Shown: positions 6,222 through 60,703 of the stretch, in pieces
How positions within the stretch are numbered: the first letter of the stretch is position 1
Layout: every line of letters starts with the position of its first letter
Virus record (IMG/VR): IMGVR_UViG_3300033148_006102
Coordinates: 62,001-126,000 of that record
DNA from: a virus
DNA length: 64,000 bases
Reading direction: 5' to 3' (one strand)
Notes under the pieces: generated by a model
Told to the model about the DNA's origin: nothing
The model's database searches: none
The model's input: the letters and a program-made list of their open reading frames with translations, nothing else
Position numbers and translations under genes: made by a program

Positions 6222-6232
6222 ACTTCCGACAT

Positions 6233-6274
6233 GGACAGTTTTCCCGCTATATTGATGTAGAGGGAAAACTGTCC
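6233..6274 (+). terminator. Long hairpin, probable terminator of the tRNA cluster
   Basis: GGACAGTTTTCCC (6233-6245) and GGGAAAACTGTCC (6262-6274) form a 13-base-pair perfect stem with a 16-base loop, followed by TTTGTT. It separates the tRNA cluster from the structural gene at 6293. Confidence 0.6.
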
Positions 6275-6292
6275 TTTGTTCGGGAGAATAAC

Positions 6293-8821: not shown

Positions 8822-8834
8822 TAGAGGATGAACG

Positions 8835-9630: not shown

Positions 9631-9631
9631 C

Positions 9632-10208: not shown

Positions 10209-10283
10209 GGCCTCGTCGTCTAATGAACAGGACACTACCCTCCGAAGGTAGAGATCCAGGTTTGAGTCCTGGCGGGGCTACCA
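10209..10283 (+). tRNA. tRNA-Arg(CCG)
   Basis: Acceptor GGCCTCG/CGGGGCT with G-T pairs at both weak positions, anticodon stem CTACC/GGTAG with loop CTCCGAA (CCG), T arm CCAGG/CCTGG with TTTGAGT (T instead of C at 56), encoded ACCA. Confidence 0.85.
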
Positions 10284-10297
10284 ATTGAAAGGAACAG

Positions 10298-10783: not shown

Positions 10784-10851
10784 CTCAACGGAATTAGAGC
10801 GCTGGTCTACGGAACCAGAGGTTGAAGGTTCGAATCCTTCCGTCCCTACCA
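10774..10851 (+). tRNA. tRNA-Arg(ACG)
   Basis: Acceptor GGGGGCG/CGTCCCT with two G-T pairs, D arm GCTC/GAGC, anticodon stem CTGGT/ACCAG with loop CTACGGA (ACG), T arm GAAGG/CCTTC with TTCGAAT, encoded ACCA. A34 would need conversion to inosine by the host TadA. Confidence 0.88.
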
Positions 10852-10866
10852 TCTTGAAAGGAAACT

Positions 10867-11262
10867 GTGGAGAAGCAGGAAGTTGTAATCAAAGTAGTTG
10901 AAAAGGGTGGCAGCGGAATAAGTATCCTGTCGCTGCTTGGCATCGCCGGCGTACTGCCAAGCAGTATGGTTGGTATCAGTAATTGGCCACGTCGTCTAAT
11001 GGAAGGATACCAGGCTTTCAACCTGGAGACCGGGGATCGATACCCCGCGTGGCTACCAATTTCACAAGGAGAAGGAATGGCAGAAGAATATGTGACATCG
11101 TTGGTGGACAAACCATCGATTGATATTACTGCACCAAAGGCAGTACAGATCGATATTCGTGAGGATGGGAAGGTGCTCTGGATCAACGTGGACGGGATCT
11201 GTCGTTTACGTTGTTGTCAGATTGAGCTCCTTGAAGTTGAAGACAGGCGAACGAAGAAATGA
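10867..11262 (+). CDS. Hypothetical ORF that stays open through a tRNA gene
   Basis: GTG 10867 after GAAAGGAAACT. The first 39 residues (VEKQEVVIKVVEKGGSGISI...) include a short hydrophobic Gly/Ser/Leu-rich segment that could cross a membrane. The frame then passes without a stop through tRNA-Glu(TTC) (10985-11058) and joins the small gene starting at ATG 11077. As with the ORF at 5616, the part over the tRNA is probably not a real protein domain, but no stop codon ends the first gene. Confidence 0.4.
   Translation: MEKQEVVIKVVEKGGSGISILSLLGIAGVLPSSMVGISNWPRRLMEGYQAFNLETGDRYPAWLPISQGEGMAEEYVTSLVDKPSIDITAPKAVQIDIREDGKVLWINVDGICRLRCCQIELLEVEDRRTKK
10985..11058 (+). tRNA. tRNA-Glu(TTC)
   Basis: Acceptor GGCCACG/CGTGGCT, anticodon stem CCAGG/CCTGG with loop CTTTCAA (TTC), T arm CGGGG/CCCCG with ATCGATA, encoded ACCA. 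Confidence 0.9.
11077..11262 (+). CDS. Small hypothetical protein
   Basis: ATG 11077 after AAGGAGAAGGA, just behind tRNA-Glu. 61 residues with alternating strand-like segments (DITAPKAVQIDIREDGKVLW) and a Cys pair (CRLRCC). Stop and next start overlap as ATGA, so it is coupled to the Pth2-like gene. Function unknown. Confidence 0.6.
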   Translation: MAEEYVTSLVDKPSIDITAPKAVQIDIREDGKVLWINVDGICRLRCCQIELLEVEDRRTKK

Positions 11263-11567
11263 AGATGTATATTTTGGTCAAGGAGGATGTGCGCTTAGGC
11301 CTTGCCGCCGTAAGTATCGCGCACGCTGCCATGGCCGCCTATTTGGCATACAAAGACACGCCAGAAGTAAAAGAATGGCTCGCCGGTCCTTTCTACAAAG
11401 TTGTGTGTAAAGTGACTGCGCAAGAGATGGAGCAGGCTAAGGACGCCGGGGACTATGTCAGGATCACAGATTCAAACTATGCGGATGGGACTGTGATAAT
11501 TGCACTGGCATTCAAGCCGCGGGAAGAATACCCGAAGGCGTTCAAATACTTCAAGCTTTTCAAATAG
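11259..11567 (+). CDS. Pth2-like peptidyl-tRNA hydrolase
   Basis: 102 residues that align with the archaeal and eukaryotic-type peptidyl-tRNA hydrolase 2 fold: KMYILVKEDVRLG at the start (family KMVLVVRxDLxMG), a conserved His in the first helix (SIAHAAMAAY), a strand KVVCKV, and a late D-x-x-x-x-D-G-T segment. Pth2 frees tRNA from stalled peptides. In a tRNA-rich phage segment with a tmRNA it would fit a ribosome-rescue role. The gene follows its neighbour with a four-base overlap and ends at the first base of tRNA-Val(GAC). The typical QDAG catalytic loop is changed, so activity is uncertain. Confidence 0.7.
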   Translation: MKMYILVKEDVRLGLAAVSIAHAAMAAYLAYKDTPEVKEWLAGPFYKVVCKVTAQEMEQAKDAGDYVRITDSNYADGTVIIALAFKPREEYPKAFKYFKLFK

Positions 11568-11642
11568 GTCGCGTGGCGCAACAGGGAGCGCATCAGCATG
11601 ACACGCTGAAGGTTAGAGGTTCGATTCCTCTCGTGGCCACCA
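11567..11642 (+). tRNA. tRNA-Val(GAC)
   Basis: Acceptor GGTCGCG/CGTGGCC with G-T wobbles, anticodon stem TCAGC/GCTGA with loop ATGACAC (GAC), T arm GAGG/CCTC with TTCGATT, encoded ACCA. Confidence 0.88.
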
Positions 11643-11656
11643 AATTTGAGGAAAAC

Positions 11657-11905
11657 ATGCTAGAACCACAGAAGACAAAACACATCAAAGAATACCCAGT
11701 CACCATAGAAACCATATTTCCTTTGGATACGTTTGACGTGCGATGGACAGAAGGTCCGGCGACGCAGCGCGTAAAGATTCGACAGGTAGAAACAGGAATC
11801 TATTTGATGTGCGACAACGATGTGCGCCCGCTCGAGGTCACAATTCCTTGGGAACGATTCTTCAATAAAATTGAAGAGCTCGTATTATCGAGCAAGCCGA
11901 TATAA
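11657..11905 (+). CDS. Small hypothetical protein
   Basis: ATG 11657 after TTGAGGAAAAC. 82 residues with regular beta-like segments (YPVTIETIFPL, FDVRWTEG, ATQRVKIRQVETGIYLM), probably a small beta-barrel. The frame is also open upstream through tRNA-Val but without a usable start. It ends directly before tRNA-Val(TAC). Function unknown. Confidence 0.6.
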   Translation: MLEPQKTKHIKEYPVTIETIFPLDTFDVRWTEGPATQRVKIRQVETGIYLMCDNDVRPLEVTIPWERFFNKIEELVLSSKPI

Positions 11906-11981
11906 GCCCGCATAGCTCAACTGGGAGAGCGCCTGACTTACATTCAGGAGGTTGGGAGTTCGAAACTCTCTGTGGGCACCA
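11906..11981 (+). tRNA. tRNA-Val(TAC)
   Basis: Acceptor GCCCGCA/TGTGGGC, D arm GCTC/GAGC, anticodon stem CCTGA/TCAGG with loop CTTACAT (TAC), T arm with TTCGAAA, encoded ACCA. One base separates it from tRNA-Glu(CTC). Confidence 0.9.
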
Positions 11982-11982
11982 T

Positions 11983-12060
11983 GGCCGCATCGTCTAGTCT
12001 GGCTCAGGATACTGCCCTCTCAAGGCAGAGACGAGGGTTCAAATCCCTCTGCGGCTACCA
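11983..12060 (+). tRNA. tRNA-Glu(CTC)
   Basis: Acceptor GGCCGCA/TGCGGCT, anticodon stem CTGCC/GGCAG with loop CTCTCAA (CTC), T arm GAGGG/CCCTC with TTCAAAT, encoded ACCA. Confidence 0.9.
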
Positions 12061-12078
12061 CAATTTTGAGAAAGGAAA

Positions 12079-12154
12079 AGCCCCGTAGCTTAATTGGAAA
12101 AGCGTCCGCCTCCTAAGTGGTCAGATCTCGGTTCGACTCCGGGCGGGGCCGCCA
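12079..12154 (+). tRNA. tRNA-Arg(CCT)
   Basis: Acceptor GCCCCG/CGGGGC (six pairs; A-C at 1-72 if seven are counted), D arm GCTT/AAGC, anticodon loop CTCCTAA (CCT), T arm CTCGG/CCGGG with TTCGACT, encoded GCCA. Confidence 0.85.
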
Positions 12155-12159
12155 ATAAC

Positions 12160-12435
12160 ATGACACACAAATTCATCAAAGAAAAAATAGAACCAAAACT
12201 TGCGGAGCTTGAAGCGAAGTTTCCGCGACGTTCAAAAGTGAGAGTGCGGAGCGCGCCTTGGGAATACCCGCATTGGCAGCGCATAGGGCACGTAGTTGAC
12301 TATGACGTGCGACACAGCGCAAATGATAGTTTGCGTGGTGTGATCAAGATTGTCGCACAGGATGTAGATCCTTGGTATGCATGGGAAGAGGATGTTGAGA
12401 TTCTTTGGGATGCGCCATCTGGGACTTTACCATAA
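12160..12435 (+). CDS. Small hypothetical protein
   Basis: ATG 12160, five bases after the CCA end of tRNA-Arg(CCT), so the leader lies within the tRNA and no good Shine-Dalgarno is visible (GGCGGGGCC is part of the tRNA). 91 residues: a charged N-terminal helix (FIKEKIEPKLAELEAKF), then an aromatic beta-rich part ending in EDVEILWDAPSG. Family unknown. Confidence 0.55.
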   Translation: MTHKFIKEKIEPKLAELEAKFPRRSKVRVRSAPWEYPHWQRIGHVVDYDVRHSANDSLRGVIKIVAQDVDPWYAWEEDVEILWDAPSGTLP

Positions 12436-12444
12436 TCACAGAAT

Positions 12445-12520
12445 GCCGCTGTCGTTCAACGGAATAGGACATCCGCCTTCTAAGCGGAGAATCGGGGTTC
12501 GAATCCCTGCAGCGGTACCA
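12445..12520 (+). tRNA. tRNA-Arg(TCT)
   Basis: Acceptor GCCGCTG/CAGCGGT, anticodon stem TCCGC/GCGGA with loop CTTCTAA (TCT), T arm CGGGG/CCCTG-type with TTCGAAT, encoded ACCA. One base before the next tRNA. Confidence 0.9.
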
Positions 12521-12521
12521 G

Positions 12522-12593
12522 GGCACACCCGCATGGTGCGGACTTGCCTCTCATAAGGGCAAAGATTGAGTTCGATTCTCAGGTGTGCCACCA
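12522..12593 (+). tRNA. tRNA-Met/Ile2(CAT) with reduced D arm
   Basis: Acceptor GGCACAC/GTGTGCC is perfect, anticodon loop CTCATAA gives CAT, T arm with TTCGATT, encoded ACCA. The D arm is a short CCGC/GCGG hairpin with a five-base loop and there is no T8. Whether it reads AUG or, after lysidine modification, AUA cannot be told from the sequence. Confidence 0.75.
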
Positions 12594-12684
12594 AATTTCT
12601 CTTGCAACGGTGAATCGGCATAATAGGATTCACGCAGGACTTTATTTTGCCGGAACAGTCCGCCGGCTTACAAAGGAGATCGCA

Positions 12685-14082
12685 ATGATGCATCACAGTA
12701 ACTGTGTGGTCACGCTCTGTGACCAGGACAACCGCCCATTCAGAGAATACAGCCACCACCGCGAAGGCGACGCCTCTCGCGCTAAGGTTAGTATTTCGTA
12801 CGGAACTGAGTACAAGTTCATGTTCCGTATCAGGGACCATCTTCGCCGGCGCGTCGAGTTCACGATCGACGGGTCGCAGGTAGGCGAGCTCATCTTCGAG
12901 GGTAACTCGCAGACCTATCTCGAGCGCTTCATCGACAGCGCACGCAAGTTCAAGGTCGTACATCCGGAGAGTAGCGAGTGCCAGGATCCGGGTAATCCGA
13001 AGAACGGCCAAGTCGAATTGACGGTATGGACAGAGAAGGCGCCGCCTCCGCCACCACCAAGGCCTGCGCGGCGTGCATTCCGCAGCCGTGGTATCACGGG
13101 ACAGACCATAGGTTGTTCTGGTATGAACAGCCCCGTCTTTGGTTCTTCTGCAGGCTCACTGGGATCCGCAGGTCCTGAATATGAGATGTTGACCAACGGC
13201 GCGGCCGCAACAGGCGAGGGCGGTTACTCGAATCAGGAATTTGGGTCGACTACCTGGCGCGGCGACGCAGGTGAGCCGATTACCTTCCAGTTCAAGATTA
13301 TGGGGAAGGAAGATGAGCATGCGCCGAACAGTAAGTTCTTCTACTGTGCGAAGTGCGGTGATCAGGTTCCTGTAGGCTCTAATTATTGCGGCAGGTGTGG
13401 TGCGCATATAGCAAGCATGAATCCTGACGGGTGCACGATTCATCTCGGCATCGTGCTTGATGAGTCGTCATCTATGGAAGGCGACTGGGATATGACGATC
13501 GACGCGATCAACGAGTATCTCGATACGCTGCAGGGTGACGACCACCGATACAGGGTCTCGATCACAGCCTTCAATACGGTGAGTCGTCCGGTCTTTCATG
13601 CGACGGATCTGACGAAGGATGTCCGGATAAGTCGGCACAACTACCGGCCTAACGGTATGACGGCGTTGTACGACGCGATCGCGGATGGTATCGGTAGCCT
13701 CGAAGACAGCGTATGGGATTATGACGGCAAGGCCATGCTGGTGATCATGACAGATGGCCAAGAGAATAGCTCCAGGAACTTCAGCCTTGACCGGATCCGT
13801 AAGTTGATCTCGAGCAAAGAACGCGATGGCAACTGGACGTTTGTCTACATGGGATCGCACAACGATGCTTGGAAGCATGGCAGCGCGCTCGGAATTAGTA
13901 AGGCGAATGTCATGCAGTTTGATCAGGCACAGGCGCAGCCGTTGATGCGCGCGTTTGGTGCAAGTACGCAGGCATATGCCAGCAGCGCGGATGCAAACTC
14001 GCAGGCCATCTTCGCGTCGAATAAAGCGGATTACAAGAATATCGGCGCAACGGCGATAGACGATCATAAGGCGGATTGTTAA
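12685..14082 (+). CDS. Zinc-ribbon and von Willebrand A domain protein
   Basis: 465 residues from ATG 12685 (AAAGGAGATCGC upstream; the open frame reaches back into tRNA-Met without a start). Domains: an N-terminal beta-rich part (about 1-115), a poly-Pro linker near 120, a Ser/Gly-rich linker, a zinc ribbon CAKCG...CGRCG (about 221-242) and a VWA domain whose MIDAS site reads DESSS (259-263), followed by the expected later Thr (GMTALYDA) and Asp (MTDGQE). VWA domains bind partners through a metal ion. It lies 3.4 kb upstream of the Ro60 gene, which carries its own VWA domain, so a link to RNA or virion assembly is possible but unproven. Confidence 0.8.
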   Translation: MMHHSNCVVTLCDQDNRPFREYSHHREGDASRAKVSISYGTEYKFMFRIRDHLRRRVEFTIDGSQVGELIFEGNSQTYLERFIDSARKFKVVHPESSECQDPGNPKNGQVELTVWTEKAPPPPPPRPARRAFRSRGITGQTIGCSGMNSPVFGSSAGSLGSAGPEYEMLTNGAAATGEGGYSNQEFGSTTWRGDAGEPITFQFKIMGKEDEHAPNSKFFYCAKCGDQVPVGSNYCGRCGAHIASMNPDGCTIHLGIVLDESSSMEGDWDMTIDAINEYLDTLQGDDHRYRVSITAFNTVSRPVFHATDLTKDVRISRHNYRPNGMTALYDAIADGIGSLEDSVWDYDGKAMLVIMTDGQENSSRNFSLDRIRKLISSKERDGNWTFVYMGSHNDAWKHGSALGISKANVMQFDQAQAQPLMRAFGASTQAYASSADANSQAIFASNKADYKNIGATAIDDHKADC

Positions 14083-14113
14083 CGTTTTCCGGCCCCAAAG
14101 CATAAGTAGTGAC

Positions 14114-19999: not shown

Positions 20000-20176
20000 G
20001 TTCGCGGAGCTTAGCAGGCTTGCACTGCGATTTCGGTTTCTCTGTTCCGACCTGGCACGCTATGCGTGATTAAAAACAGAGTGGTGGACTGGGACAGTGG
20101 ATGGAGGACACCAAATCCGCCGGAAGCCTGTCACGCCCTCGTCTTGATCCGGGACGCTAACTTGGATCAGCTTTTT
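20000..20176 (+). ncRNA. Possible small RNA of about 170 bases
   Basis: Between the candidate promoter at 19967 and the terminator at 20145 lies a region without a convincing gene. It can form CTCTGTT/AACAGAG (around 20040-20085) with CACGC/GCGTG inside, and GACAG/CTGTC (around 20095-20135). No known RNA family was recognised. Confidence 0.3.
20145..20176 (+). terminator. Rho-independent terminator
   Basis: TGATCC (20145-20150) and GGATCA (20164-20169) pair, followed by GCTTTTT. The stem is short. Confidence 0.5.
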
Positions 20177-20184
20177 GAATTTGT

Positions 20185-20262
20185 TGCGGGGTGGAGCAGT
20201 CTAGTCAGCTCGCAAGGCTCATAACCTTGAGGTCGTCAGTTCAAATCCTTCCCCCGCCACCA
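20185..20262 (+). tRNA. Initiator-like tRNA-fMet(CAT) with damaged T stem
   Basis: Sequence and layout follow bacterial tRNA-fMet (GCGGGGTGGAGCAG at the start, TTCAAATCC in the T loop region). The 1-72 pair is a T-C mismatch, as required for initiators, and the anticodon loop CTCATAA gives CAT. The T stem GTCAG/CCTTC pairs poorly, and the three G-C pairs of the initiator anticodon stem are absent (CAAGG/CCTTG). CCA is encoded. It may be decaying or specialised. Confidence 0.75.
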
Positions 20263-20275
20263 ATTTGGAGAAAAG

Positions 20276-20341
20276 ATGAAGACGTTACTGAGTTACTCGT
20301 CCTTGTATCTGTGCCTCTCAGGCGCGGAGGTTGGCGTGTAA
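20276..20341 (+). CDS. Possible 21-residue peptide
   Basis: ATG 20276 follows TTGGAGAAAAG, a good Shine-Dalgarno at proper distance, and the peptide MKTLLSYSSLYLCLSGAEVG with a final Val ends at TAA 20339-20341. It is hydrophobic in the middle. A terminator follows 29 bases later, so it would be a complete tiny gene. Chance occurrence cannot be excluded. Confidence 0.3.
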   Translation: MKTLLSYSSLYLCLSGAEVGV

Positions 20342-20369
20342 CTGGATCTTCATCACCTACCGGTCCCAG

Positions 20370-20398
20370 AAACCCGCCAGCACAACCTGGCGGGTTTT
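20370..20398 (+). terminator. Rho-independent terminator
   Basis: AAACCCGCCAG (20370-20380) and CTGGCGGGTTT (20387-20397) form a perfect stem with a six-base loop, ending in TTTT. Confidence 0.85.
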
Positions 20399-20404
20399 CT
20401 GTTG

Positions 20405-20416
20405 AGCTCTTTGACA
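20405..20416 (+). promoter_or_regulatory. boxA-like sequence, second copy
   Basis: AGCTCTTTGACA is identical to the site at 5124-5135, 18 bases before tRNA-Tyr. It may be an antitermination signal or part of a promoter. Confidence 0.3.
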
Positions 20417-20433
20417 TTTGTGACGGAACTAAT

Positions 20434-20523
20434 GGTCGGTGTTCCCCATGGCGGTCTGTAAAACCGTTGTCGTTAAATATTTGGGGTAGTAGACGAATGG
20501 TCCAATTCCATTACCGACCACCA
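20434..20523 (+). tRNA. tRNA-Tyr(GTA) with a vestigial D arm
   Basis: Acceptor GGTCGGT/ACCGACC is perfect, anticodon loop CTGTAAA gives GTA, T stem AATGG/C CATT pairs with loop TCCAATT, and ACCA is encoded. Only ten bases (GTTCCCCATG) stand where a D arm of about 19 is normal, while the variable region is about 28 bases. CCCCA in the D region could pair with TGGGG in the variable region. Confidence 0.7.
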
Positions 20524-20540
20524 TTTCTTGAAAGGAAAAC

Positions 20541-21029
20541 ATGGGAAGAGAAGTACGAATGGTTCCACCCAACTGGAAGCATCCAATAGGCGATCGTGGA
20601 TACCTACAACCAATGCACGATGAGAACTTCGAAGAAGCACTTGCGGAGTGGAAGAACGGTCAGGCTGCATGGGAAGCTGGCACGCACGAAGATTTCGCAG
20701 AATATGGTGAAGACACCTCCTGGGAAGATTGGGCCGGCGAAGAGCCAGAGCCTGAATACTATCGGCCATGGAAAGCCGAAGAAGCCACGTGGTATCAGCT
20801 CTGGGAGACGGTTAGCGAAGGTACGCCGGTAACACCACCTTTTGCAACAAAGGAAGAGCTCGCGGACTACCTAGTCAATGTCGGCGAAGACTTCGGCCGG
20901 CGACAGACATGGCCGCGCGAGGCCGCTGATAACATGATGCGAGAAGAATGGGCGCCTTCGTTCATTGCTCGAGACGGCGTGATAATGGAGCCTAAGGATC
21001 CTGCTTTCTTTTCGGGAATGAAGAAATAA
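20541..21029 (+). CDS. Conserved-looking phage protein of unknown function
   Basis: 162 residues from ATG 20541 after GAAAGGAAAAC. The start (MGREVRMVPPNWKHPIGDRGYLQPM) resembles a group of small phage proteins that open with R-x-V-P-x-x-W-x-H-P and are of unknown function. The rest is rich in Trp, Glu and Pro, with several PPFATKEELADYL-like helices. It follows tRNA-Tyr and precedes tRNA-Leu. A DNA- or protein-binding adaptor is possible. Confidence 0.65.
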   Translation: MGREVRMVPPNWKHPIGDRGYLQPMHDENFEEALAEWKNGQAAWEAGTHEDFAEYGEDTSWEDWAGEEPEPEYYRPWKAEEATWYQLWETVSEGTPVTPPFATKEELADYLVNVGEDFGRRQTWPREAADNMMREEWAPSFIARDGVIMEPKDPAFFSGMKK

Positions 21030-21032
21030 TAA

Positions 21033-21109
21033 GCCTCCGTAGGCGAATTGGGATAGCCGCTTGACTTAGGATCAAGTGTTTGTGAGTTCGACTTTCACCG
21101 GAGGTACCA
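21033..21109 (+). tRNA. tRNA-Leu(TAG) with short variable arm
   Basis: Acceptor GCCTCCG/CGGAGGT, D stem GGC/GCC, anticodon stem CTTGA/TCAAG with loop CTTAGGA (TAG), variable loop TGTTT of only five bases, T arm GTGAG/TTCAC with TTCGACT, encoded ACCA. Bacterial tRNA-Leu normally has a long variable arm. Confidence 0.85.
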
Positions 21110-21114
21110 ATATT

Positions 21115-21236
21115 GAAGAGTACGGCGACGCAGCGAACTGCGGACGGGGTAGGCGGGTTGCTAGCACTTGGCCTGCACGGGCGGAATAAATCGAAAGACG
21201 CCGTGAGCAGAGGTAATTGAACTGCCCGTACTCTTC
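21115..21236 (+). ncRNA. Unknown structured RNA
   Basis: GAAGAGTACGG (21115-21125) and CCGTACTCTTC (21226-21236) form an eleven-pair stem enclosing further hairpins: CGCAG/CTGCG with a CGAA loop, GGCG/CGCC around 21180-21203, and GCAG/CTGC near 21207-21225. TTCATTTTGG follows. A stretch near 21150 (GTAGGCGGGTTGCTAGC) resembles the D arm of the neighbouring tRNA-Leu genes. It lies between two tRNA-Leu genes. No known family. Confidence 0.5.
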
Positions 21237-21244
21237 TTCATTTT

Positions 21245-21321
21245 GGCAGCGTAGGCGAATTGGGATAGCCGCCGTACTCAAAATGCGGTGTTTGTGGGTT
21301 CGACTCCCACCGCTGCTACCA
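21245..21321 (+). tRNA. tRNA-Leu(CAA) with short variable arm
   Basis: Acceptor GGCAGCG/CGCTGCT, D arm nearly identical to that of tRNA-Leu(TAG), anticodon stem CCGTA/TGCGG with loop CTCAAAA (CAA), variable loop TGTTT, T arm GTGGG/CCCAC with TTCGACT, encoded ACCA. Confidence 0.85.
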
Positions 21322-21330
21322 CATTCAACT

Positions 21331-21413
21331 GGCTGGATGGCGGAACTGGTAGACGCGCACGGTTGAGGGCCGTGTTCCCAGGAGTGAGGGTTCGAATCCC
21401 TCTCCAGCCACCA
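21331..21413 (+). tRNA. tRNA-Leu(GAG)
   Basis: Acceptor GGCTGGA/TCCAGCC, D loop with GG, anticodon stem CACGG/CCGTG with loop TTGAGGG (GAG), long class II variable arm as expected, T arm GAGGG/CCCTC with TTCGAAT, encoded ACCA. Confidence 0.92.
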
Positions 21414-21423
21414 GTTTGACGGA

Positions 21424-21500
21424 GCCTCCGTAGCCCAACTGGGAGAGGCACTTGGTTTAAGCCCAAGTCAGTGTCGGTTCGAATCCGACCGGAGGTACCA
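21424..21500 (+). tRNA. tRNA-Leu(TAA) with short variable arm
   Basis: Acceptor GCCTCCG/CGGAGGT, anticodon stem CTTGG/CCAAG with loop TTTAAGC (TAA), variable loop TCAGT of five bases, T arm GTCGG/CCGAC with TTCGAAT, encoded ACCA. Its acceptor is identical to that of tRNA-Leu(TAG). Confidence 0.85.
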
Positions 21501-21501
21501 A

Positions 21502-21589
21502 GGAGGTATGGCTGAGTGGAAAAGCTCCCGGTTGCTAACCGGTGGACAGGGTAACACCTGCGCAGGTTCGAATCCTGCTACCTCCGCCA
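21502..21589 (+). tRNA. tRNA-Ser(GCT)
   Basis: Acceptor GGAGGTA/TACCTCC, anticodon stem CCCGG/CCGG-type with loop TTGCTAA (GCT), long variable arm with paired ends, T arm GCAGG/CCTGC with TTCGAAT, encoded GCCA. Confidence 0.92.
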
Positions 21590-21608
21590 ATTTTCTTAAA
21601 GGAGAAAA

Positions 21609-21980
21609 GTGAAACGATATAAGCTGAACCTATCAACAAGATTAGTCGGCACGCTAAATATAGAAGCCGAATCAAAAGAAGAGGCCCTGGAAAAGGCAAA
21701 CGTACGAAGTGATAACAGTAATATCGAATGGTTGAATCACGACCAGGCAGCTGAGATCACCGGTGTTGACTGTCTGGGCGAGGCCACCATCCGCGAATAC
21801 ACCTTCACGGTTAAGCGACAGCTTCAAGGTCAATGTGAAGTAGAGGCGGCTAATGAAGACGAGGCCCGCCGAAAGCTCGACAGTATCATGGAGCATAGTG
21901 ATGGTGACATCGAATGGGATGATGATGGCTATGACATCGAAGATGTTGAAATTGAGGAATGGGAAGCTGACGAGGAGTAA
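21609..21980 (+). CDS. Protein with two copies of a small repeat domain
   Basis: GTG 21609 after AAAGGAGAAAA. 123 residues. Two similar units, YKLNLSTRLVGTLNIEAESKEEA and YTFTVKRQLQGQCEVEAANEDEA, each a pair of strands followed by a helix, resemble small phage and plasmid domains of the DpnD/PcfM kind; this is a guess from the pattern. The C-terminus is extremely acidic. It stands two bases before the next gene. Confidence 0.6.
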   Translation: MKRYKLNLSTRLVGTLNIEAESKEEALEKANVRSDNSNIEWLNHDQAAEITGVDCLGEATIREYTFTVKRQLQGQCEVEAANEDEARRKLDSIMEHSDGDIEWDDDGYDIEDVEIEEWEADEE

Positions 21981-21981
21981 A

Positions 21982-22479
21982 ATGTCGGCAAAATGTAAAA
22001 CACCAAACAAAATAGATCTCAAGAAGCTCGATCTTTATCGAGTCAAATTTGAATGGAATGGTGAGACAGTTTACGGTCTTGTCGATTTGTACGATAGAGA
22101 CTCTGATGAATACGCCGAACGTGGCTTAGTACTTGTGGATCATTGTGTGCTGAGGACACGATATGCGCTACCGCCAAGTAAACTGACACCAATGAAATGT
22201 TCTTTTGAACCTGATGATGAATTTGACCAATATGTTGAGCAGCAGGCCAAAGAGGCGCAAGAGCTCCATAAATCGCTGCCGAAGGACAAGCTCTGTGTTG
22301 GCCATATGTTTTCAATCGGTGTGGGCGATGGTTATGCGTCTTATGTGGTAACAAAGGTATTCAAGAAGAATTGCGATATTGAATGGCGCGGCTTCTGTGT
22401 GGATCGTTGGACGGACCATCACTTCGGATGGGGCGGCCGCTTCCCGATCGATGAGATCATGCGGTACGTGGGACCATAG
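21982..22479 (+). CDS. Hypothetical protein
   Basis: ATG 21982 directly after the previous stop, with GAGGAGTAA as binding site. 165 residues: a basic N-terminus (MSAKCKTPNKIDLKKLDLYR), strand-like segments (YGLVDLYDRD, GLVLVDHCV), and aromatic C-terminal part (RWTDHHFGWGGRFPIDEIMRYVGP). No domain recognised. It forms a small operon with its neighbours. Confidence 0.6.
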   Translation: MSAKCKTPNKIDLKKLDLYRVKFEWNGETVYGLVDLYDRDSDEYAERGLVLVDHCVLRTRYALPPSKLTPMKCSFEPDDEFDQYVEQQAKEAQELHKSLPKDKLCVGHMFSIGVGDGYASYVVTKVFKKNCDIEWRGFCVDRWTDHHFGWGGRFPIDEIMRYVGP

Positions 22480-22487
22480 CTTTGACG

Positions 22488-22703
22488 ATGTACATACGCG
22501 AGTCCGCGGATGAATATAGGCCGATCTCAGATGAGGAATTCGATGAGATCAACCGCAAGTGTGATACTGTTTCAGGTGATGCAATTTGTGAAGTATGTGG
22601 AAAACCATATCGTGATCACCCTACGTTGAAGATATACCAGGATCGACACACAGCGTGGTGGTTTCCGAAGATCCTTTGCAACGGGCGCTATGGTCATACG
22701 TAG
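22488..22703 (+). CDS. Small protein with a Cys motif
   Basis: ATG 22488 (an in-frame TTG at 22482 is possible). 71 residues: an acidic helix at the start, then CEVCGKPYRDH, which looks like half a zinc finger completed by a later Cys and His (ILCNGRYGH). The stop shares a base with the following tRNA-Ser. Function unknown. Confidence 0.55.
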   Translation: MYIRESADEYRPISDEEFDEINRKCDTVSGDAICEVCGKPYRDHPTLKIYQDRHTAWWFPKILCNGRYGHT

Positions 22704-22789
22704 GAGGGTACCGCTGAAGTGGTCGGCAACCGGTCTTGAAAATCGGGGTGGTGTAACAGCCAGGGGTTCGAACCCTCTACCCTCCGCCA
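22703..22789 (+). tRNA. tRNA-Ser(TGA)
   Basis: Acceptor GGAGGGT/ACCCTCC, anticodon stem CCGGT/ATCGG with loop CTTGAAA (TGA), long variable arm, T arm AGGGG/CCCTC-type with TTCGAAC, encoded GCCA. Confidence 0.9.
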
Positions 22790-22794
22790 AATTA

Positions 22795-22833
22795 CTACGC
22801 CCTCGGTGGCTAAATAGACCTCCGAGGGCGTAG
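22795..22833. other. Perfect 12-base-pair hairpin
   Basis: CTACGCCCTCGG (22795-22806) and CCGAGGGCGTAG (22822-22833) pair perfectly. No T run follows on either strand, so it is not a normal terminator. It may be a processing site between tRNA-Ser and tRNA-Cys. Confidence 0.45.
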
Positions 22834-22896
22834 CGAAAAGGCTCGACGCATTCTGGGAAGGTTTTTCAGATCTGTCAATTGCAATCTTTTGTACGG

Positions 22897-22969
22897 GGCC
22901 GCGATCCGCTGGGAGTGGGGTGCGTCTGCAAAACGCACAGATCAGGTTCGACTCCTGACGCGGCCTCCA
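22897..22969 (+). tRNA. tRNA-Cys(GCA)
   Basis: Acceptor GGCCGCG/CGCGGCC, anticodon stem TGCGT/ACGCA with loop CTGCAAA (GCA), T arm TCAGG/CCTGA with TTCGACT, encoded TCCA. It is the last tRNA of the island. Confidence 0.9.
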
Positions 22970-40193: not shown

Positions 40194-43100
40194 ATGGCAT
40201 TCCAGATGGTAACCGCGGCTCTCAAGACCGCATTTGAGGGACAGGCCTACTCCGAACAAGTTCTCGCAATCGAACCTACTGGTGCTATTACGTACAGCAT
40301 CGTATCCGGCGCGTTACCGAGTGGTGTTACGCTAACACCGGCTACTGGTGTTGTTTCAGGTACACCAGCTGCAGGTACCGTTGGAACGTATACGGTCAAG
40401 TTTGACGCGGATGACGGTGCCACAACCGTCCAGACAGGCAACCTAACCTTTTCAGTGCTACCGGCGGCCTACAACCGGGCAGCCGAATTTCTGTTGCAGA
40501 ACAAGGTGCAAGTCGGCGCCGATCATGTTTATGGATCTGGCGTCGATCGCGTAGATCTTGAACGGCACTTCTTTGATCTGCCGTCAGACAAAACATATGT
40601 TCACGATGCGATTCGAATTCTGATGCAATCGGTGGCGGGCTATCCGGCAACGGATCGGTCAGTTGATCAAGTAGCGCGGGATCTGAATACGGCAATTACA
40701 GCGATCAGCGGCAAGGTTTTTGCCGAAACAACAGCTGCATTGGTTGACGGAAATACTGCGGCCTTAACAGATATCGGCGGTAATCAAGCAACTTTCCAGA
40801 TGACGGGTGCGATTTACTTCGGTAAGTCTGGAAGCGCAGACGCGGCGACGTCCCGATCATACGTACGAATTACAGACCCAACCACAGAAGACGAATACAC
40901 GGATGACGATGGAAACGAGCTCGTTATCGCATCGATCTATGACGATCAGGCAGTACCAGTTGAAATTAATCCAGATTTAAATGGCGCAACGCAAGTTGAT
41001 AGCGACGGTTTCTATGTGGGTACGACGGTAACGGTTACGGTCGGTTTCTCTGCCGGTTCCACCAATCCAAAGACATACATTGCAGCGCAACCGGATACAA
41101 ATCTTGTCGTTAATTATGGTCTGAAGAAGACGTTCCAGACTTTGACAGAGGCCGCGCTTTTCCGCAAAGCAAATATTACTGGTGAGGTCGATGCTGACAT
41201 CAAACAGTACATTGCGGAAATTAAAGGTGACGATTACTTTGCCACGCCCGCGATTGACTTAGTTACAGCAGCGGCAGCTATTGCGGCGTCAGCTAAATTC
41301 CTTGTGATTGGTCCGTCTGGTCATTATGCGGACTTTGATACGGCGCTTGCGGCGATTCTCGCGGACACCACAACATACCCAGCTGGTAGCTATATTTTCA
41401 TGACATTGCCGCCAGGTGTGACACAGTATTTGTCAGCTGATCGTACAATTGATCGTGATTTATCTATTACAGCTGTATCAGTTGCACCAATTACTGGATC
41501 AGCTAGTACGTACATAGCCAAGGATGGTACGGCCAACCCGTATCGGATTCTTGTAAGCGGCGGCAATTTGTATCTGGATTTACGGAATGTTGGTCTGCGT
41601 TGTCAGGATACTGCACCGGATGCAAATAAAGAATTGATCTATGTTTCAGGCGCCAATGACTGCTATGTGCATTTCCAGGATTTCAATGGCGGCGGTCAGT
41701 GTTTATGGTCCGAGCATAACGCGGCAACGGCAGTTATTCGACAGGATGTGGCAGGCACAGGAACCATCCGTTGTACTGTGACTGATGGCTGTTTAATGTC
41801 GATCGTTGCTCCTGCGACATATGTAATTGATGTCGCAGCCGGTGGGTTGGCGTTTATTGCTGTGTATGGTGATGGCGATTGGGAAGATGGCGCTTTGAAC
41901 GGCGCTCCAGGCGCTATCGGTAGTATCGCGCAGTACACAGTCATACCGACTAAAACAACGCCATCGGTTTCTGGTGGTATGACACGATTACCGACAAGAC
42001 CTCCACACATGTCTGTGCCAGCTCGATCTTCAGATCCGACACCTAGTGCGGTTCCTGCGGATGATAACGGTATGATGTGGTACAACACCGCATCACACCT
42101 TATTCGAGCATGCATCAATTCGGTCTTTGTCAGCATGATGTCAAACCCGATGACTACACAGGGCGACATCATTACTGGTGCAGCTAGCGGTGTGCCACAA
42201 CGGTTAGCGCTTGGGACACAAAATTATGTGCTGGCCGCTGGCGCAACAGACCCACAATGGATGAACCTTGTACCAATTACTACGCAGGGTGACATCATTT
42301 ATGGGAATGCGACGCCGGTACCTGCCCGCTTGCCGATCGGTTCCACAGATCAGGTACTAACGGTGTCAGGCGGTCAACCAGCGTGGGCGGCCGCGACACC
42401 TCTTACTACAGCCGGCGACATAATCCGTGGTGATACCGCTTCTGGTGATCCAGAACGTCTAGCATTAGGCGCGGCTGGTACTGTGTTGACATCTGTTGGT
42501 GGTCAGGCCGCATGGGCAGTACCTGGCTCTGGGACCTGGACCATCAATAACACGCAAGTCATTCATGTATCGGAGAATGGAAACGATGGTACTGGAGACG
42601 GAAGCCCATACAAGCCGTACTTAACGGTATCAAAGGCATTGACCGTGCTTGCGGCTTCTGGACCAACAGCCATCATGGTGCACGGCGATATTACCGAAAC
42701 CGCGGCACTGGATTTAAGTGGTTACAGTGATTTGGCAATCATCGGAGATGGCCAGGGTGTTAGCCGTATTCTCAACGCAACGACAAATACGACCATGATC
42801 GTGCTGCCAACGGCCGCCAAGTCGAATATCGCGATCATGAACATCATGCTTGAAAACACGGACGATGATCCGGCTAGTCAGGCACTTCGGGTCGGTACAT
42901 CGGGCGCGGCAGGATCCTTGACGAACCTGATTATTCACAATGTGCACTGCAAGGCACGTGGTGGACAAGACGGTATCGTGCGCCTTTGGGTGGACAACGC
43001 AAGTGGCTCTTGGGCTTCGTCTTCGATCACGAACTTGAGTATCGAATGGGGTACGATACCAACGGCGCCAGCGGTCACGACCGGATTGGACCTAACAGAT

Positions 43101-44126
43101 CTGCTTGACGCGTCTGCATCAATTCTTATCGATGGATTGCAATTTGTGAATCTGGGTTGGAGTGGTGCACACTCTGTCGATGCGTATGCAGTTGAAGTTA
43201 TGAATTCGACGGTTTATAGCAAAGTCATCATTAACAATATGCAGATGGATGTAGCGCCGATCGGTACAGGTCAGCGCGTAGGTGTAAAAGGCACCGGGGC
43301 TTCTACCGTCACCGTACAAAATTCAAAGATTCGAATTGACGCCGGTAACGACATCACGGGCAATGTCTACGGCATGCTTTACTGTTTAGCGCTTAATAAT
43401 GACGTTACTATCTATCGTGAGTTTGATGCAGCGCCGGGTTCATCTAGTACGACAGCCGGGATCGGTGCATTATTGAGCGGTTCTACTGGTAACGTCGGCC
43501 GGGTAATACTGCATACAACAGGTACTTGGACTCTAGCTGAGCTCACCGTAGGCTATTTTTGCAGCGCATTAAATCAGCATTACGGTGAAAACACGGGCAT
43601 ACTGCTGTTGGGTGGTGATGGTGGTGATACGCTAACGGCCAACGCGGATTACGGCATAGGTGGAGTATATGTACTCGGTAGTTCGCAACCAAGCTACCAC
43701 GCTACGCTTACTGGTGTGCTAGATACTGTGCGCAGTACTGGTGCAGGAATAGCCACATTTACCAATTTCCAAGCTACTCACATCCGCGCTATAAGCGGTG
43801 CAACACATATCGGCCATTTAGTTTCCGTGATGCTGGACACCGATGCGGCCAATACCGCGCTCACTACTTGTGCTGCGCTGGCTTTGGGGAAGGCTACCTT
43901 AGCGAACACCGTGATCATAGGTTCTGGGGTGTTAGCTTTTGTGGATCGGGGCGCTACCAGTGCTGCATATGCGGGTCCGGCTGTGGTGCATCGTCCTGAA
44001 ACAGGTTTTGGCGGTAATCCTTCACTTGTTAGGCCGGCTAATAATCTGGCTTATTCGAAATTTACGAGCGCCACAGACGCGACGGTTGCGGCAGGTCTTT
44101 CGACCACTAACATGGGTACTGTCTAA
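40194..44126 (+). CDS. Giant fibre or tailspike protein
   Basis: 1310 residues from ATG 40194. It starts with an Ig-like (He_PIG-type) domain (AFEGQAYSEQVLAIEPTGAITYSIVSGALPSGVTL), followed by a long beta-rich part, then three copies of a 35-40-residue unit with TTQGDII.G...P.RL..G...VL...GG.P.W (about residues 650-780), typical of phage fibres, then a beta-helix (VSENGNDGTGDGSPYKPYLTVSKALTVL...) like pectate-lyase-type tailspikes. It probably forms a trimeric fibre or spike for host recognition. Start and stop of the next gene overlap. Confidence 0.7.
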   Translation: MAFQMVTAALKTAFEGQAYSEQVLAIEPTGAITYSIVSGALPSGVTLTPATGVVSGTPAAGTVGTYTVKFDADDGATTVQTGNLTFSVLPAAYNRAAEFLLQNKVQVGADHVYGSGVDRVDLERHFFDLPSDKTYVHDAIRILMQSVAGYPATDRSVDQVARDLNTAITAISGKVFAETTAALVDGNTAALTDIGGNQATFQMTGAIYFGKSGSADAATSRSYVRITDPTTEDEYTDDDGNELVIASIYDDQAVPVEINPDLNGATQVDSDGFYVGTTVTVTVGFSAGSTNPKTYIAAQPDTNLVVNYGLKKTFQTLTEAALFRKANITGEVDADIKQYIAEIKGDDYFATPAIDLVTAAAAIAASAKFLVIGPSGHYADFDTALAAILADTTTYPAGSYIFMTLPPGVTQYLSADRTIDRDLSITAVSVAPITGSASTYIAKDGTANPYRILVSGGNLYLDLRNVGLRCQDTAPDANKELIYVSGANDCYVHFQDFNGGGQCLWSEHNAATAVIRQDVAGTGTIRCTVTDGCLMSIVAPATYVIDVAAGGLAFIAVYGDGDWEDGALNGAPGAIGSIAQYTVIPTKTTPSVSGGMTRLPTRPPHMSVPARSSDPTPSAVPADDNGMMWYNTASHLIRACINSVFVSMMSNPMTTQGDIITGAASGVPQRLALGTQNYVLAAGATDPQWMNLVPITTQGDIIYGNATPVPARLPIGSTDQVLTVSGGQPAWAAATPLTTAGDIIRGDTASGDPERLALGAAGTVLTSVGGQAAWAVPGSGTWTINNTQVIHVSENGNDGTGDGSPYKPYLTVSKALTVLAASGPTAIMVHGDITETAALDLSGYSDLAIIGDGQGVSRILNATTNTTMIVLPTAAKSNIAIMNIMLENTDDDPASQALRVGTSGAAGSLTNLIIHNVHCKARGGQDGIVRLWVDNASGSWASSSITNLSIEWGTIPTAPAVTTGLDLTDLLDASASILIDGLQFVNLGWSGAHSVDAYAVEVMNSTVYSKVIINNMQMDVAPIGTGQRVGVKGTGASTVTVQNSKIRIDAGNDITGNVYGMLYCLALNNDVTIYREFDAAPGSSSTTAGIGALLSGSTGNVGRVILHTTGTWTLAELTVGYFCSALNQHYGENTGILLLGGDGGDTLTANADYGIGGVYVLGSSQPSYHATLTGVLDTVRSTGAGIATFTNFQATHIRAISGATHIGHLVSVMLDTDAANTALTTCAALALGKATLANTVIIGSGVLAFVDRGATSAAYAGPAVVHRPETGFGGNPSLVRPANNLAYSKFTSATDATVAAGLSTTNMGTV

Positions 44127-51302: not shown

Positions 51303-53222
51303 ATGGCAGGTGGTACTACATTAAGCTCGACACCCGCCGGCCGCTTTACTGCGGAACCATCAGGCTTAAATAGAAATCGATATCCGCACCAGTTCTTCTC
51401 GTTGTCGGATGGGTTTATTCCGTCGACGACGAAGGAAATGATGCGTTGGGCGCTGTATTTGTACAGCACCAACCCCATCATCAACCAGATCTTCCGGAAG
51501 ATTGCGGGGTTCATCACAACCAAGATCATGGTTAGTGGCGATGCGGACGAAGATAAGCAAGTAGTTGAAGAATTCATCCATGATACGCTCAAACTGCCGC
51601 GGCAAGAGCGGCGCATGATGATCGACTACTTGTTGTATGGCAATGCGTTTGCCAAGTTCATTCCGCCGGCCGACAAGTACATGGTCTGTGACAAGTGCAA
51701 GGCGAAAACGCGCTTGGACGAAGTTGATAAGTGGACGTTTAAGAACATGCGCTTCTCCGGCACTTGTCCGAAGTGCGGCGCAAAAGGTACCAAAGAGCTC
51801 GCTGAGGAACCGATCAAAAACCGGAAGCGGGCGCGTTTGGTGCGTATTAATCCGCGTTATATCGACATCCACTACAACCCGCTAACAGAACAACGGCTAT
51901 ACATTTTCAATGTGCCGGCTGCGATTGAGCAAAGTCTCAAGCAAAGCAAAGATTACGTCCAGCGATGGTTTGTTGAAACTACGCCGCTTGATGTGATCAT
52001 GGCGATCAAGAAAAAGAAGGTCATCAAGTGGAACGAGCAGGAAGTATTTCACTTCCTCTTTGATTCAGCCTCGCGTGATGACGATACGTTCGGCGAGATC
52101 CCGTTATTACCCGTCTTCAAGCAGACCTGGCTACTACATACGCATTGGCGCGCGCAGGAAGCAATCTCGATTGAGCATATCACACCGTGGTTGCTCGTTA
52201 GTCCGGCGTCCGGGGGATCATCAGATGTCATGCACAGTTATGACATGGGACGCTGGACGAATTTCATGCGTCAGGCGTTTCTCAACTGGCGACGGGATCC
52301 CAATTACATTGCGCTCAGTCCGTTCCCGGTTACACAGGTGCAACTCCGCGGTGATGCGAAGGCGTTGGATACCTTCAACCAGCAGGAATTTTTGGTCAAA
52401 ATCATATCCGGCGGCATGGGCGTGCCGGAAGGTTTCATCTTTGGTGGCATGACCTGGAGCAGCGCGAGCGTTGAACTGCGGGCGCTTGAAAATGAATGGA
52501 TCAACCTGACTGCCCGGTTGGAAGAGTTCATCAAATGGGTTAAAACCAAGGCTGAGGCCATGCTGGATCTTCCGAAGGTGGAGATCGAGCACCAAGAATT
52601 CAAGATGGCCGATGATGTGCAGCAACGGCAACAAAGCCTACAGTTAGCTGCGCAAGGCGTGATTTCTCAGCAGCAGCTATGTCGTGACCTGGGTTATGAT
52701 TATGACGAAATGCTGCGCGAGAAGAAGCGTGAGCACGAAACAGATCAGTCTGGTGTGGCCATGCAGCAGAAGCGTGAGGCACAGGCACAAGCTGAAGTTT
52801 TGAAGATTCAAGGGCGGGTCCAGCTCGAACTTGAATTACAGCGTTTGAAGGAAACGCATAAGTTGCAACAGCAATTGGAAGCTGGTACAGTACCGGATAC
52901 ACCAACGGACTTTGGGAATGCCGGCCAGTTATCAGCGGTGAATGCACCAGGTCGTACAGACACGGTTCAGATCGGGCCAATGACATATTCCGAGGAACTG
53001 CTGCGGAACATGGCATCAAACTTCATGCGCACACGGCCGACAAACGAAATGCGCGAACGTGAACTGCGTACTTTGGAACTCGGAGATCCCGGTGGACGCG
53101 TACTTGCGAGAACGATTCGTAGGTATATGAAAGAAATCGAGGCGGAGTCGCGGAAGGCGGTTATGAACCCGTTACCGCAACAGAAGCCTGGTAAACGTAG
53201 TCCTCAGAATATGGTGATCTGA
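51303..53222 (+). CDS. Portal protein with embedded zinc ribbon
   Basis: 639 residues from ATG 51303. Features of phage portal proteins: MMRWALYLYSTNPIINQIFRKIAGFIT near residues 46-72, a wing with DYLLYGNAFAKFI, and a late helix region with QEFLVKIISGGMGVPEGFIFGGMTWSSASVE, the family block before the long helix (LARL...ELQRLKE). A Cys4 zinc ribbon (CDKC at 129-132 and CPKC at 155-158) is inserted in the first half, an unusual addition. The C-terminal 120 residues are coiled coil and basic. The portal forms the DNA-packaging gate of the head. Confidence 0.8.
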   Translation: MAGGTTLSSTPAGRFTAEPSGLNRNRYPHQFFSLSDGFIPSTTKEMMRWALYLYSTNPIINQIFRKIAGFITTKIMVSGDADEDKQVVEEFIHDTLKLPRQERRMMIDYLLYGNAFAKFIPPADKYMVCDKCKAKTRLDEVDKWTFKNMRFSGTCPKCGAKGTKELAEEPIKNRKRARLVRINPRYIDIHYNPLTEQRLYIFNVPAAIEQSLKQSKDYVQRWFVETTPLDVIMAIKKKKVIKWNEQEVFHFLFDSASRDDDTFGEIPLLPVFKQTWLLHTHWRAQEAISIEHITPWLLVSPASGGSSDVMHSYDMGRWTNFMRQAFLNWRRDPNYIALSPFPVTQVQLRGDAKALDTFNQQEFLVKIISGGMGVPEGFIFGGMTWSSASVELRALENEWINLTARLEEFIKWVKTKAEAMLDLPKVEIEHQEFKMADDVQQRQQSLQLAAQGVISQQQLCRDLGYDYDEMLREKKREHETDQSGVAMQQKREAQAQAEVLKIQGRVQLELELQRLKETHKLQQQLEAGTVPDTPTDFGNAGQLSAVNAPGRTDTVQIGPMTYSEELLRNMASNFMRTRPTNEMRERELRTLELGDPGGRVLARTIRRYMKEIEAESRKAVMNPLPQQKPGKRSPQNMVI

Positions 53223-53581: not shown

Positions 53582-56500
53582 ATGAAGACGTTCAACAAAT
53601 CCACAGAGCTCGCGTATAACCGTATGCGCGCGAACGTCGTCGATCGAATATCGGCGATGTTTCCTATTGATACTCGCAAATACACGGTCACGGCGAAGAA
53701 CTTTCGCTGGATTGATAGCGCTGTCAACGATCTCAAACCCTTTCTTACAGCGAAGTTACGTAAAAATACTCTCGCGACACCATTGCGGGCGCACATCACG
53801 GTGAAGGACAAAAAGGGGAAGGTAGTCTACGAAGATAAGGACTTCCTGGTTACCGCGGTACCGAAGATGACGCCGCTAGGATCTTATGTAGTAAACGGGT
53901 CTGACGTTCAAACCATTACACAAGCGCGTCGTAAGCCTGGTATTTATACGTCACGCATGCCTAACGATAACATCTTGACACGTTTCAGCACTGCCGGCGG
54001 GGAGATCGGCATTATGCTGGACCGGCTTACTCGAGTATTCAAGGTTCGGGTGAGGGCGAAGTTCTTCCCGCTGTATTCAATTGCAGCGGCTGCTGGTGTG
54101 ACAGATGAAGAGTTGCGCAAGGCGTGGGGTGACGAACTTTACCGGATCAACAAACAGAAGGCCAAACCACTCAAGGATCAACAACGTTTCTGGCAGGCTA
54201 CACGGCGCGTTGCCTTACCGACGGACGCATCAGAAATTTCAGCCGGAATCAAGGCGTTCTTGGAGTCAAAACCACTGGATCCCAAAGTTACGAAGTTGAC
54301 CGTTGGCGAGGGTTTCGACGCGATAAATGCTCGTGCGCTTGTGGCGGCCTCAGAAGCAGCTTTGAAGGTACAGCAGGGTAAGCGTGAAGTTGACGACATG
54401 GAGTCGTTGGCATACAAGAACTACTACGGTATCGAAGACTTCGTGAGTGAAGCACTAGACCAAGCTACAAACAAGATTCGAAATCATATCGCCTACCTTC
54501 TGGATCGGACTGATAACGCTAAGCGTGCGCTTAGTCCCGAACTCTTTACTCAGCCTATTATGGGCGAGTTTACGCAGTCAGAGTTTTCACGATTTTCGTC
54601 ACAAAACAATCCGCTGGACATACTGGCGACAGATAATCTGGTGACCATTACCGGTCGTGGCGGTATCCAGAATCATCATGCCATTACCGAAGGTCTGCGG
54701 GCGCCGCATAGTACGCATCTTGGGTTTTACGATCCAACGCATACGCCAGAAGGTTGCCATGATTCTGAGACTGAAGTATTTACGGATAAGGGCTGGGTAA
54801 AGTGGCCTGATGTAACTGAGAACACTAGCTTCGCTTGTTTGATGGATGGAGATGTACTTGAGTACCATAAGGCTGAAGAGCTGCAGGTATATGACTGGAA
54901 TCAGCCTCTTTATGGATTTAAATCCAAGACCATTGAATATCTCGTCACAGCTAATCATCGCATGTGGGTTCGCCCAGATGATAGTGATCGCGGGCAGGGG
55001 TTACCGAAGTACCGCTTTGAAGCTGCCGAAGCTGCGCATTTGAAGCCACGTAAGGTTCGGTGTGGTGGGCATCTGGCGTATTACGGTAAACTAGTTAATC
55101 GTAGCACAATACGCTTAGCTGAGGTCCAGGGTGGGAGCGCTACAAAACAAGCCGACGCTTTTGATATTGAGGATTGGGCGGAATTCTTGGGATGGTATAT
55201 TTCCGAGGGTAGTACTTGGTACAAACCTGAAATCGGTAAGTATGCTGTACAGATTACTCAACGATTAGACGCGAATCCCGAAAACGTAGCTCGTATCGCT
55301 GCATTGTTGGATCGCATGCGACTTCCGTTCTCATTCAGTAAGCCCAAAACTTTTTCAATTTCACGGAAGCAACTGGCTGCGTATACGAAACAGTTTGGAA
55401 AATGCGATGAGAAGTTTTTACCTGAAGAGGTTTTTGAATGGCCTGTAGTTGCACGTGAGCGCTTGCTTGAAAGTCTGATGCTAGGTGATGGTCGAAAAGG
55501 TAAAACAAAAATCGGGTGGTTATCTGGAAGTGGCTATTGCACGACAAGTTTACGGCTAGCTAAAGATGTGGAACGTCTTTGTTTTGGGTTGGGGATTTCA
55601 ACACGTACCGTATTTGAACCAGACGAACGTGCAGTACATTACAAAGGTTGCTGGATTATACACTTGCATGTGTGCCACGAACGGACGCTCCGTAAAAGTA
55701 TGACAGCACAAGATTCTGGCTATTTCATGCAGGCATATAATGGCAAAGTGTATTGTGCTACGGTACCAGGTCATCGTTTGTATTGCCGTAGAAATGGTAA
55801 AGGTGGCTTCTGGTCAGGTAACTCTGGCATCGGAATCACAACACACATGGCGTCGGGTGTTGTGCGACAGGGCCAGGAATTGAAAAGCCCTTTCTTCGAT
55901 GTGCGTAACAAGTGGCGAGTAGTGAACCTGACGCCGACGCAGTTGATCGGTAAGGTCATCGCGTTTCCTGACCAAATTGACGCGAAGACGCGGAAGTTCA
56001 AAACCGCTACGGTTAACGTTATTCAGGACGACAAACAGAATCGTGTGCGTACGGATAAAGTCGATTACGCCATGATCGATAGCGCGATGGTGTTTGACCC
56101 TATCACGGGTATGATGCCGTTCTTGCAGAACACAGATGCGAACCGTGTGTTGATGAGCGCACGCCATATGGAGCAGGCGGTACCGCTGATTACACGAGAA
56201 GCGCCGCTGGTTTCCGCACGCGTAGGCGATACCGATATTACTCAAGAACAACGGCTTCATTACACCGGTGTTGGCTCACGGGCACCGGTGGCCGGCGAAG
56301 TTACTCGAGTAACAGCACAGAAAATCACGATTACCGATAAGGACGGAAAGAAGCACGTTGTTCCGATGCTTCGTGATTATCCGTTGAACAGCGAGCAGTA
56401 CTTTACCGAGGTCCCCGCGGTTAAAGCTGGGGACAAGGTAAAAGAAGGCGAAATACTGGCGGATAATAATTTTACCCATAACGGTAGTCTGGCGCTGGGT

Positions 56501-60703: not shown

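Follow-up and report, generated by a model that had tools for sequence, protein, structure and literature searches.

A fused beta-beta' RNA polymerase gene in a phage genome that also encodes two sigma-70-family proteins

Can a phage carry both large subunits of a bacterial-type RNA polymerase as one polypeptide and, if so, how would such an enzyme find its promoters? These questions are raised by one gene in a 64,000-nucleotide stretch of viral DNA (the window), which covers positions 62001-126000 in a virus record of 195,108 bases (G000). A preliminary description, made from the sequence alone, read this gene as beta followed by beta' in one frame of about 2017 residues once an intein is removed, and that reading proved exact. 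The open reading frame (ORF) starts with an ATG at 53582, runs without interruption to a stop codon at 60701-60703, and encodes 2,017 aa after intein removal. An in-frame TTG lies two codons 5' of the ATG. The gene is present as a single copy in the 195-kb record, and we assigned the following features to it (window coordinates).

53582..60703, + strand: single-chain beta-beta' RNA polymerase gene, 2,373-aa precursor (single ORF; Pfam, NCBIfam and PDB matches)
53582..54754, + strand: beta N-terminal extein, residues 1-391, terminating ...DPTHTPEG (aligned with intein-free relatives)
54755..55822, + strand: intein, 356 aa, residues 392-747, C1...N356, Ser+1 (sequence reading; absent from relatives at the same point)
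55823..57583, + strand: beta C-terminal extein, residues 748-1334, flap and beta double-psi barrel (Rpb2_6; rpoB model)
56954..56980, + strand: beta catalytic lysines K1125 and K1133 (GDK...SKG), invariant in 20/20 and 49/49 members
57554..57646, + strand: beta/beta' fusion junction, residues 1325-1355 (alignment)
57590..60700, + strand: beta' part, residues 1337-2373 (alignment to T. aquaticus beta' beginning at its residue 2)
58169..58306, + strand: beta' clamp coiled coil (aligns with B. subtilis beta')
58754..58768, + strand: DFDGD metal-binding motif, residues 1725-1729 (Asp triad 1725/1727/1729 invariant in 49/49 aligned members)
59555..59647, + strand: bridge helix (ARKGLADKGLSTADTGAFTK...; aligns with bacterial beta')
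59810..59842, + strand: second beta' zinc site, CQSKDGICQLC with upstream HDCGT (aligned with bacterial beta')
59915..59971, + strand: trigger loop (SEPATQLTLKAFHTSGSAG; aligned with bacterial IGEPGTQLTMRTFHTGG)

Pfam domains follow one another along the chain in the order Rpb2_3 and Rpb2_6 (beta), then Rpb1_1, Rpb1_2, and Rpb1_5 (beta'), in agreement with the order of the NCBIfam matches, rpoB (266-300 bits) and then rpoC (477 bits). The Rpb2_6 match covers residues 902-1256 (165 bits), and the rpoB model reaches approximately residue 1323. NCBIfam models of the natural Helicobacter and Wolbachia fusions match the window chain as well. The DFDGD metal site that had been placed in beta' is confirmed by its invariant Asp triad, and the trigger-loop catalytic residue, His 2124, is a histidine in all 43 members that have a residue at this position. 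Thus, the features that mark a double-psi-barrel (multisubunit-type) RNA polymerase, namely the DxDGD triad, the two beta lysines, the bridge helix, and the trigger loop, are all present. Judging from these alignments, the catalytic residues are all retained in the window polymerase. The alignment columns for the N-terminal zinc ribbon of bacterial beta' are empty across the whole clade of relatives described below. The clamp coiled coil, on which sigma-2 docks in bacteria, is kept.

The beta part is interrupted by the intein, which is flanked by HTPEG before and SGIGI after, both within beta. It has the splice residues, the conserved blocks (a TxxH-type block, VTANH; LAGLIDADG-like LGWYISEG and LMLGDG; and C-terminal VYCATVPGHRLY and FWSGN), and the uninterrupted homologues at the same point by which an intein is recognized: insert-free relatives read straight through, e.g., HTPEG-EKIGI. 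An NCBIfam search returned no intein family above its curated cut-off, and intein-containing models matched weakly. We expect that the intein would excise itself from beta. Large intein-like inserts were also seen in the same polymerase of other phages, after window residue 976 in one (L020) and after window residue 1728, within the DFDGD motif, in five (L026, L030, L035, L036, and L070). With the beta site in the window, insert sites in the polymerase number three, each in a highly conserved motif.

The window protein alone, used as a query, found no close relatives in viral contigs; an alignment query did. The first such query aligned the window chain to gp206 of Salmonella phage Arash and to its Vibrio phage D69 counterpart (31% and 30% identical to the window chain, respectively) and yielded 62 viral loci. 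Of 135 relatives matched by a second query of this kind, 80 loci were kept. After duplicate contigs, bacterial contigs, and short fragments were dropped, the tree set comprised 124 members, a census that includes some contig fragments and a few near-identical contigs. First, a full beta-beta' fusion is found in 70 of the 124 members. Second, in 39 members the chain breaks after the catalytic domain of beta' or is cut by the contig end, and 13 have a further break early in beta'. Third, in two members beta is broken as well, close to a homing endonuclease gene. None of the 124 was seen to break cleanly at the beta/beta' boundary; all members that span the boundary are fused there. The single-chain polymerase of the preliminary description is supported, and what that description missed is that the fusion is a clade-wide trait, with beta' split again in a derived branch.

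Several members of the census deserve separate comment. We considered L179 (IMGVR_UViG_3300000172_000001, 7804-13782) as a clean break between beta and beta' and rejected it: the pieces share one frame with single TGA separators, one of them at a conserved Trp. Four in-frame TGA codons interrupt this polymerase; when they are read through, the ORF has 2,024 codons. In all likelihood the gene is fused and recoded, and the pattern suggests TGA recoding in this phage. A tmRNA gene lies near the L179 polymerase, at 17729-18100. In Vibrio phage D181 (L003, 4887-10455) and in L041 (8917-14432), beta is interrupted at an identical point, and the gap in D181 contains a homing endonuclease gene, hinting at an intron or at fission by endonuclease invasion.

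We rooted the tree with bacterial rpoB and rpoC, leaving out the Helicobacter and Wolbachia cellular fusions. H5-H7 and similar "phage" records with ordinary bacterial rpoB and rpoC were used as outgroup only. H5 and H6 (L004 and L005) and others of this kind from wastewater, which were deposited as phage clones (Enterococcus or Staphylococcus), look like bacterial contigs. In the rooted tree, the full-fusion forms are basal and paraphyletic. The members with a genuinely split beta' make up one nested group of 52 (support 0.99), into which Arash and D69 fall, and the double-split forms make up a single subgroup of 13 (support 1.00). Deep branches beside the window are weakly resolved (support 0.21-0.85). 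The tree also sets the clade apart from Cobetia phage Carin-5, Yersinia phage GN1, and L079. Because the fused junction is kept in every member, fusion is ancestral under any rooting within the clade. The simplest account of this tree is one ancient fusion, followed by a fission after the catalytic domain and then by a second fission near the beta' N terminus. The polymerase is probably an ancient, vertically inherited core gene, and it adjoins the portal gene.

How might the fused enzyme be directed to promoters? The preliminary description saw no alpha, omega, or sigma gene nearby and reasoned that promoter recognition must come from elsewhere or from the protein itself. Its observation held for alpha and omega, but the absence of sigma is true inside the window only, and the reasoning does not hold since the same record encodes two sigma-70-family proteins, S1 and S2, both outside the window. 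S1 (258 aa; record positions 148905-149681) passes the Pfam cut-offs for sigma regions 2 and 4. S2 (record positions 12454-13023) belongs to a divergent family without a Pfam match; over regions 2-4, its profile matches solved SigA/RpoS structures in the PDB (5e-15), and its match to the S1 profile has a probability of 97.7%. Regions 2 to 4, which define the sigma-70 family, are thus recognized in S1 via Pfam and in S2 via the PDB match. In Arash, the S2 and S1 counterparts (gp10 and gp196, respectively) are both deposited as sigma factors. An apparent absence of sigma from the full-fusion genomes was considered and discarded: the Pfam sigma region 2 model had missed S2, and a homologue search recovered it. 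S2 is present in every one of the ten clade records searched whose length is at least 117 kb, the window's record included, and the records without an S2 match are all 98 kb or smaller. A relative of S1 is found in 15/15 split-branch records tested.

Curated models found no alpha family member in the window's record, the only record searched for it, and Pfam and curated models found no omega in ten clade records; a very divergent alpha or omega could escape such models. A search for a shared motif upstream of genes, as a promoter might leave, returned only tRNA T-arm-like words and ribosome-site-like words of the GAAAGGA type.

We consider a sigma-dependent single-chain core polymerase, working without alpha or omega, to be the best model and a probable one. 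The gene would encode a complete bacterial-type RNA polymerase core as one chain. Folding would bring together the beta barrel with its two lysines and the beta' barrel with its three aspartates, as in the two-subunit enzyme, and the C terminus of beta would be tied to beta' through a short fixed linker. This linker and the shared fold might take over the assembly role of alpha and omega; a host alpha or omega could also join the single-chain enzyme. A phage sigma would then dock on the clamp coiled coil and lead the enzyme to phage promoters. The sigma used would be S2 in all of the large genomes tested; this phage and the re-split branch would add S1, which is closer to the canonical form.

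Two conserved genes flank the polymerase.

51303..53222, + strand: portal-protein gene, conserved 5' of the polymerase (homologue upstream in 53/65 loci; Arash annotation "portal protein")
61965..63773, + strand: downstream neighbour, 602 aa, function unassigned (homologue in 36 loci)

Elsewhere in the window, 28 tRNA genes of many specificities lie on one strand among small ORFs (4879-22969), and 40194-44126 encodes a protein of 1,310 aa in which an Ig-like domain (He_PIG) lies close to the N terminus. Adjacency to the portal gene makes late expression or virion packaging of the polymerase plausible. If it were packaged, the single chain would be a virion polymerase, injected with the DNA to transcribe early genes, with S2 as a packaged specificity factor, comparable to phiKZ-like phages. 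Such a role would agree with the position of the polymerase gene next to the portal gene throughout the clade, with the location of Arash gp10 (S2) between a "structural" cell wall hydrolase and several "structural" proteins, and with the one polymerase copy in the window's record. However, the Arash record gives gp206 no structural label, and late expression alone also explains proximity to structural genes. We regard packaging as possible, if doubtful.

Phage sigma factors often redirect the host polymerase, and S1 and S2 might likewise serve the host enzyme, leaving the single-chain polymerase to find promoters via another factor or by itself. There are precedents on both counts: polymerase-less jumbo phages commonly encode a sigma for the host core, and the factor used by described phage polymerases is not a sigma, e.g., AR9 gp226 (PMC7598289). 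Nevertheless, no large genome searched has the single-chain enzyme without S2, the clamp coiled coil to which sigma docks is retained, and the described jumbo phages that encode an RNA polymerase are without recognizable initiation-factor homologues (PMC7598289). We find it unlikely that both sigma proteins work for the host alone, and we favor a partnership of phage sigma with the single-chain polymerase.

The sigma-dependent single-chain model also presumes that the chain stays whole, and here the junction is informative. It comprises 31 residues, without gaps, in 49/49 members of the first alignment; the same boundary in three bacterial two-gene concatenations from the outgroup takes 48-108 residues. 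As in cellular rpoBC fusions, the C terminus of beta is joined in frame to the N terminus of beta'. The junction is under purifying selection, with pN of 0.011-0.033 versus pS of 0.29-0.49 in three close pairs and pN of 0.107 versus pS of 0.853 in a fourth, more distant pair. Whole-gene codon counts of split-type pairs were left out, as their index crosses separate genes. Phage structural-module proteins are often processed, and the sequence by itself is compatible with a protease that would cut the fused chain into beta and beta', the working enzyme then being an ordinary two-subunit core. Yet the junction is fixed in length and under purifying selection, the splits in this lineage occur elsewhere, inside beta', and no protease partner is implicated, all of which makes such cleavage improbable. 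A hidden stop or frameshift between beta and beta', which the preliminary description had named as a finding that would overturn it, did not appear, and because the fused frame occurs independently in ~70 viral contigs and close relatives show purifying selection at the junction, chance, frameshift, and assembly artefact are excluded. That an assembly or sequencing error joined two genes can be dismissed, with nothing found in its favor and the same frame in those ~70 contigs, including one (L124) binned in a bacterial metagenome assembly, and the same junction in the isolates Arash and D69.

Taking the clade as a whole, we lean, by a small measure, toward a broader proposal: that more than 120 tailed phages carry a minimal sigma-dependent machine, which in the full-fusion forms would consist of a beta-beta' chain of ~2,000 residues and a dedicated sigma, small and divergent, with neither alpha nor omega, and that part of the clade later re-split beta', giving a natural path from a fused to a fragmented polymerase. 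If neither alpha nor omega is needed for activity, the phage would offer a natural, very small polymerase of the cellular type that depends on sigma, and a practical single-gene core. The proposed order of fusion and then fission bears on how phage polymerases became fragmented, and the cultured relatives Arash and D69 allow direct testing.

The nearest known systems are in the clade itself. Arash gp206 and gp216 (OQ632216) and the polymerases of Vibrio phages D69, D148, and D181 share the portal neighbor and the gapless junction with the window, whereas their beta' is split after the double-psi beta-barrel (DPBB) domain, with a separate C-terminal gene of ~610 aa. Their polymerase genes are annotated merely as "subunit beta" or as hypothetical. 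A full-text search of a partial open library found no literature report of the fused clade, and its phages apparently form a large, undescribed family. The mReC phages (Weinheimer and Aylward 2020, PMC7481178) are likewise Caudovirales with bacterial-like beta and beta', and the paper on them mentions fusion for crAssphage only. Carin-5 (L007) and GN1 (L009) are probable cultured mReC members; unlike the fused clade, they have separate genes, with beta' before beta, and a Gp23 capsid. Carin-5 has a deposited sigma gene just upstream of its polymerase genes. The Gp23 family model (PF07068) found no match in the window's record or in any further fused-clade record tested, and the fused clade therefore differs from the mReC phages in this one criterion, the capsid.

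Other single-chain enzymes differ more. The crAss-like polymerase and YonO likewise combine the two catalytic barrels in a single polypeptide. The crAss enzyme is reported to be too divergent to match COG0085/COG0086 (PMC7481178), whereas the window chain matches cellular models, rpoC at 477 bits and rpoB at 266-300 bits. The Helicobacter and Wolbachia rpoB-rpoC fusions (PRK09603 and PRK14844) also place beta before beta' in one chain. Their models are ~2,840-2,890 aa long, compared to 2,017 aa for the phage chain, which has no zinc ribbon in beta' and falls in a clade of its own. Cellular fusions are accompanied by alpha and omega, but Pfam models found no alpha in the window's record and no omega in the ten clade records searched. 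Finally, the phiKZ and AR9 polymerases are, like this one, phage-encoded bacterial-type cores without alpha or omega. The preliminary description contrasted the fused chain with giant phages that often split these subunits, and the literature bears this out: jumbo-phage polymerases are split and come without alpha, omega, or recognizable initiation-factor homologues (PMC7598289), and those of phiKZ and AR9 consist of four or five polypeptides, in two sets per phage, with no recognizable sigma (PMC7598289). The window phage has one chain, in one copy, and two sigma-70 genes. Its clade is the reverse of the described jumbo-phage polymerases: instead of a fragmented enzyme with no sigma, one chain with a sigma co-encoded.
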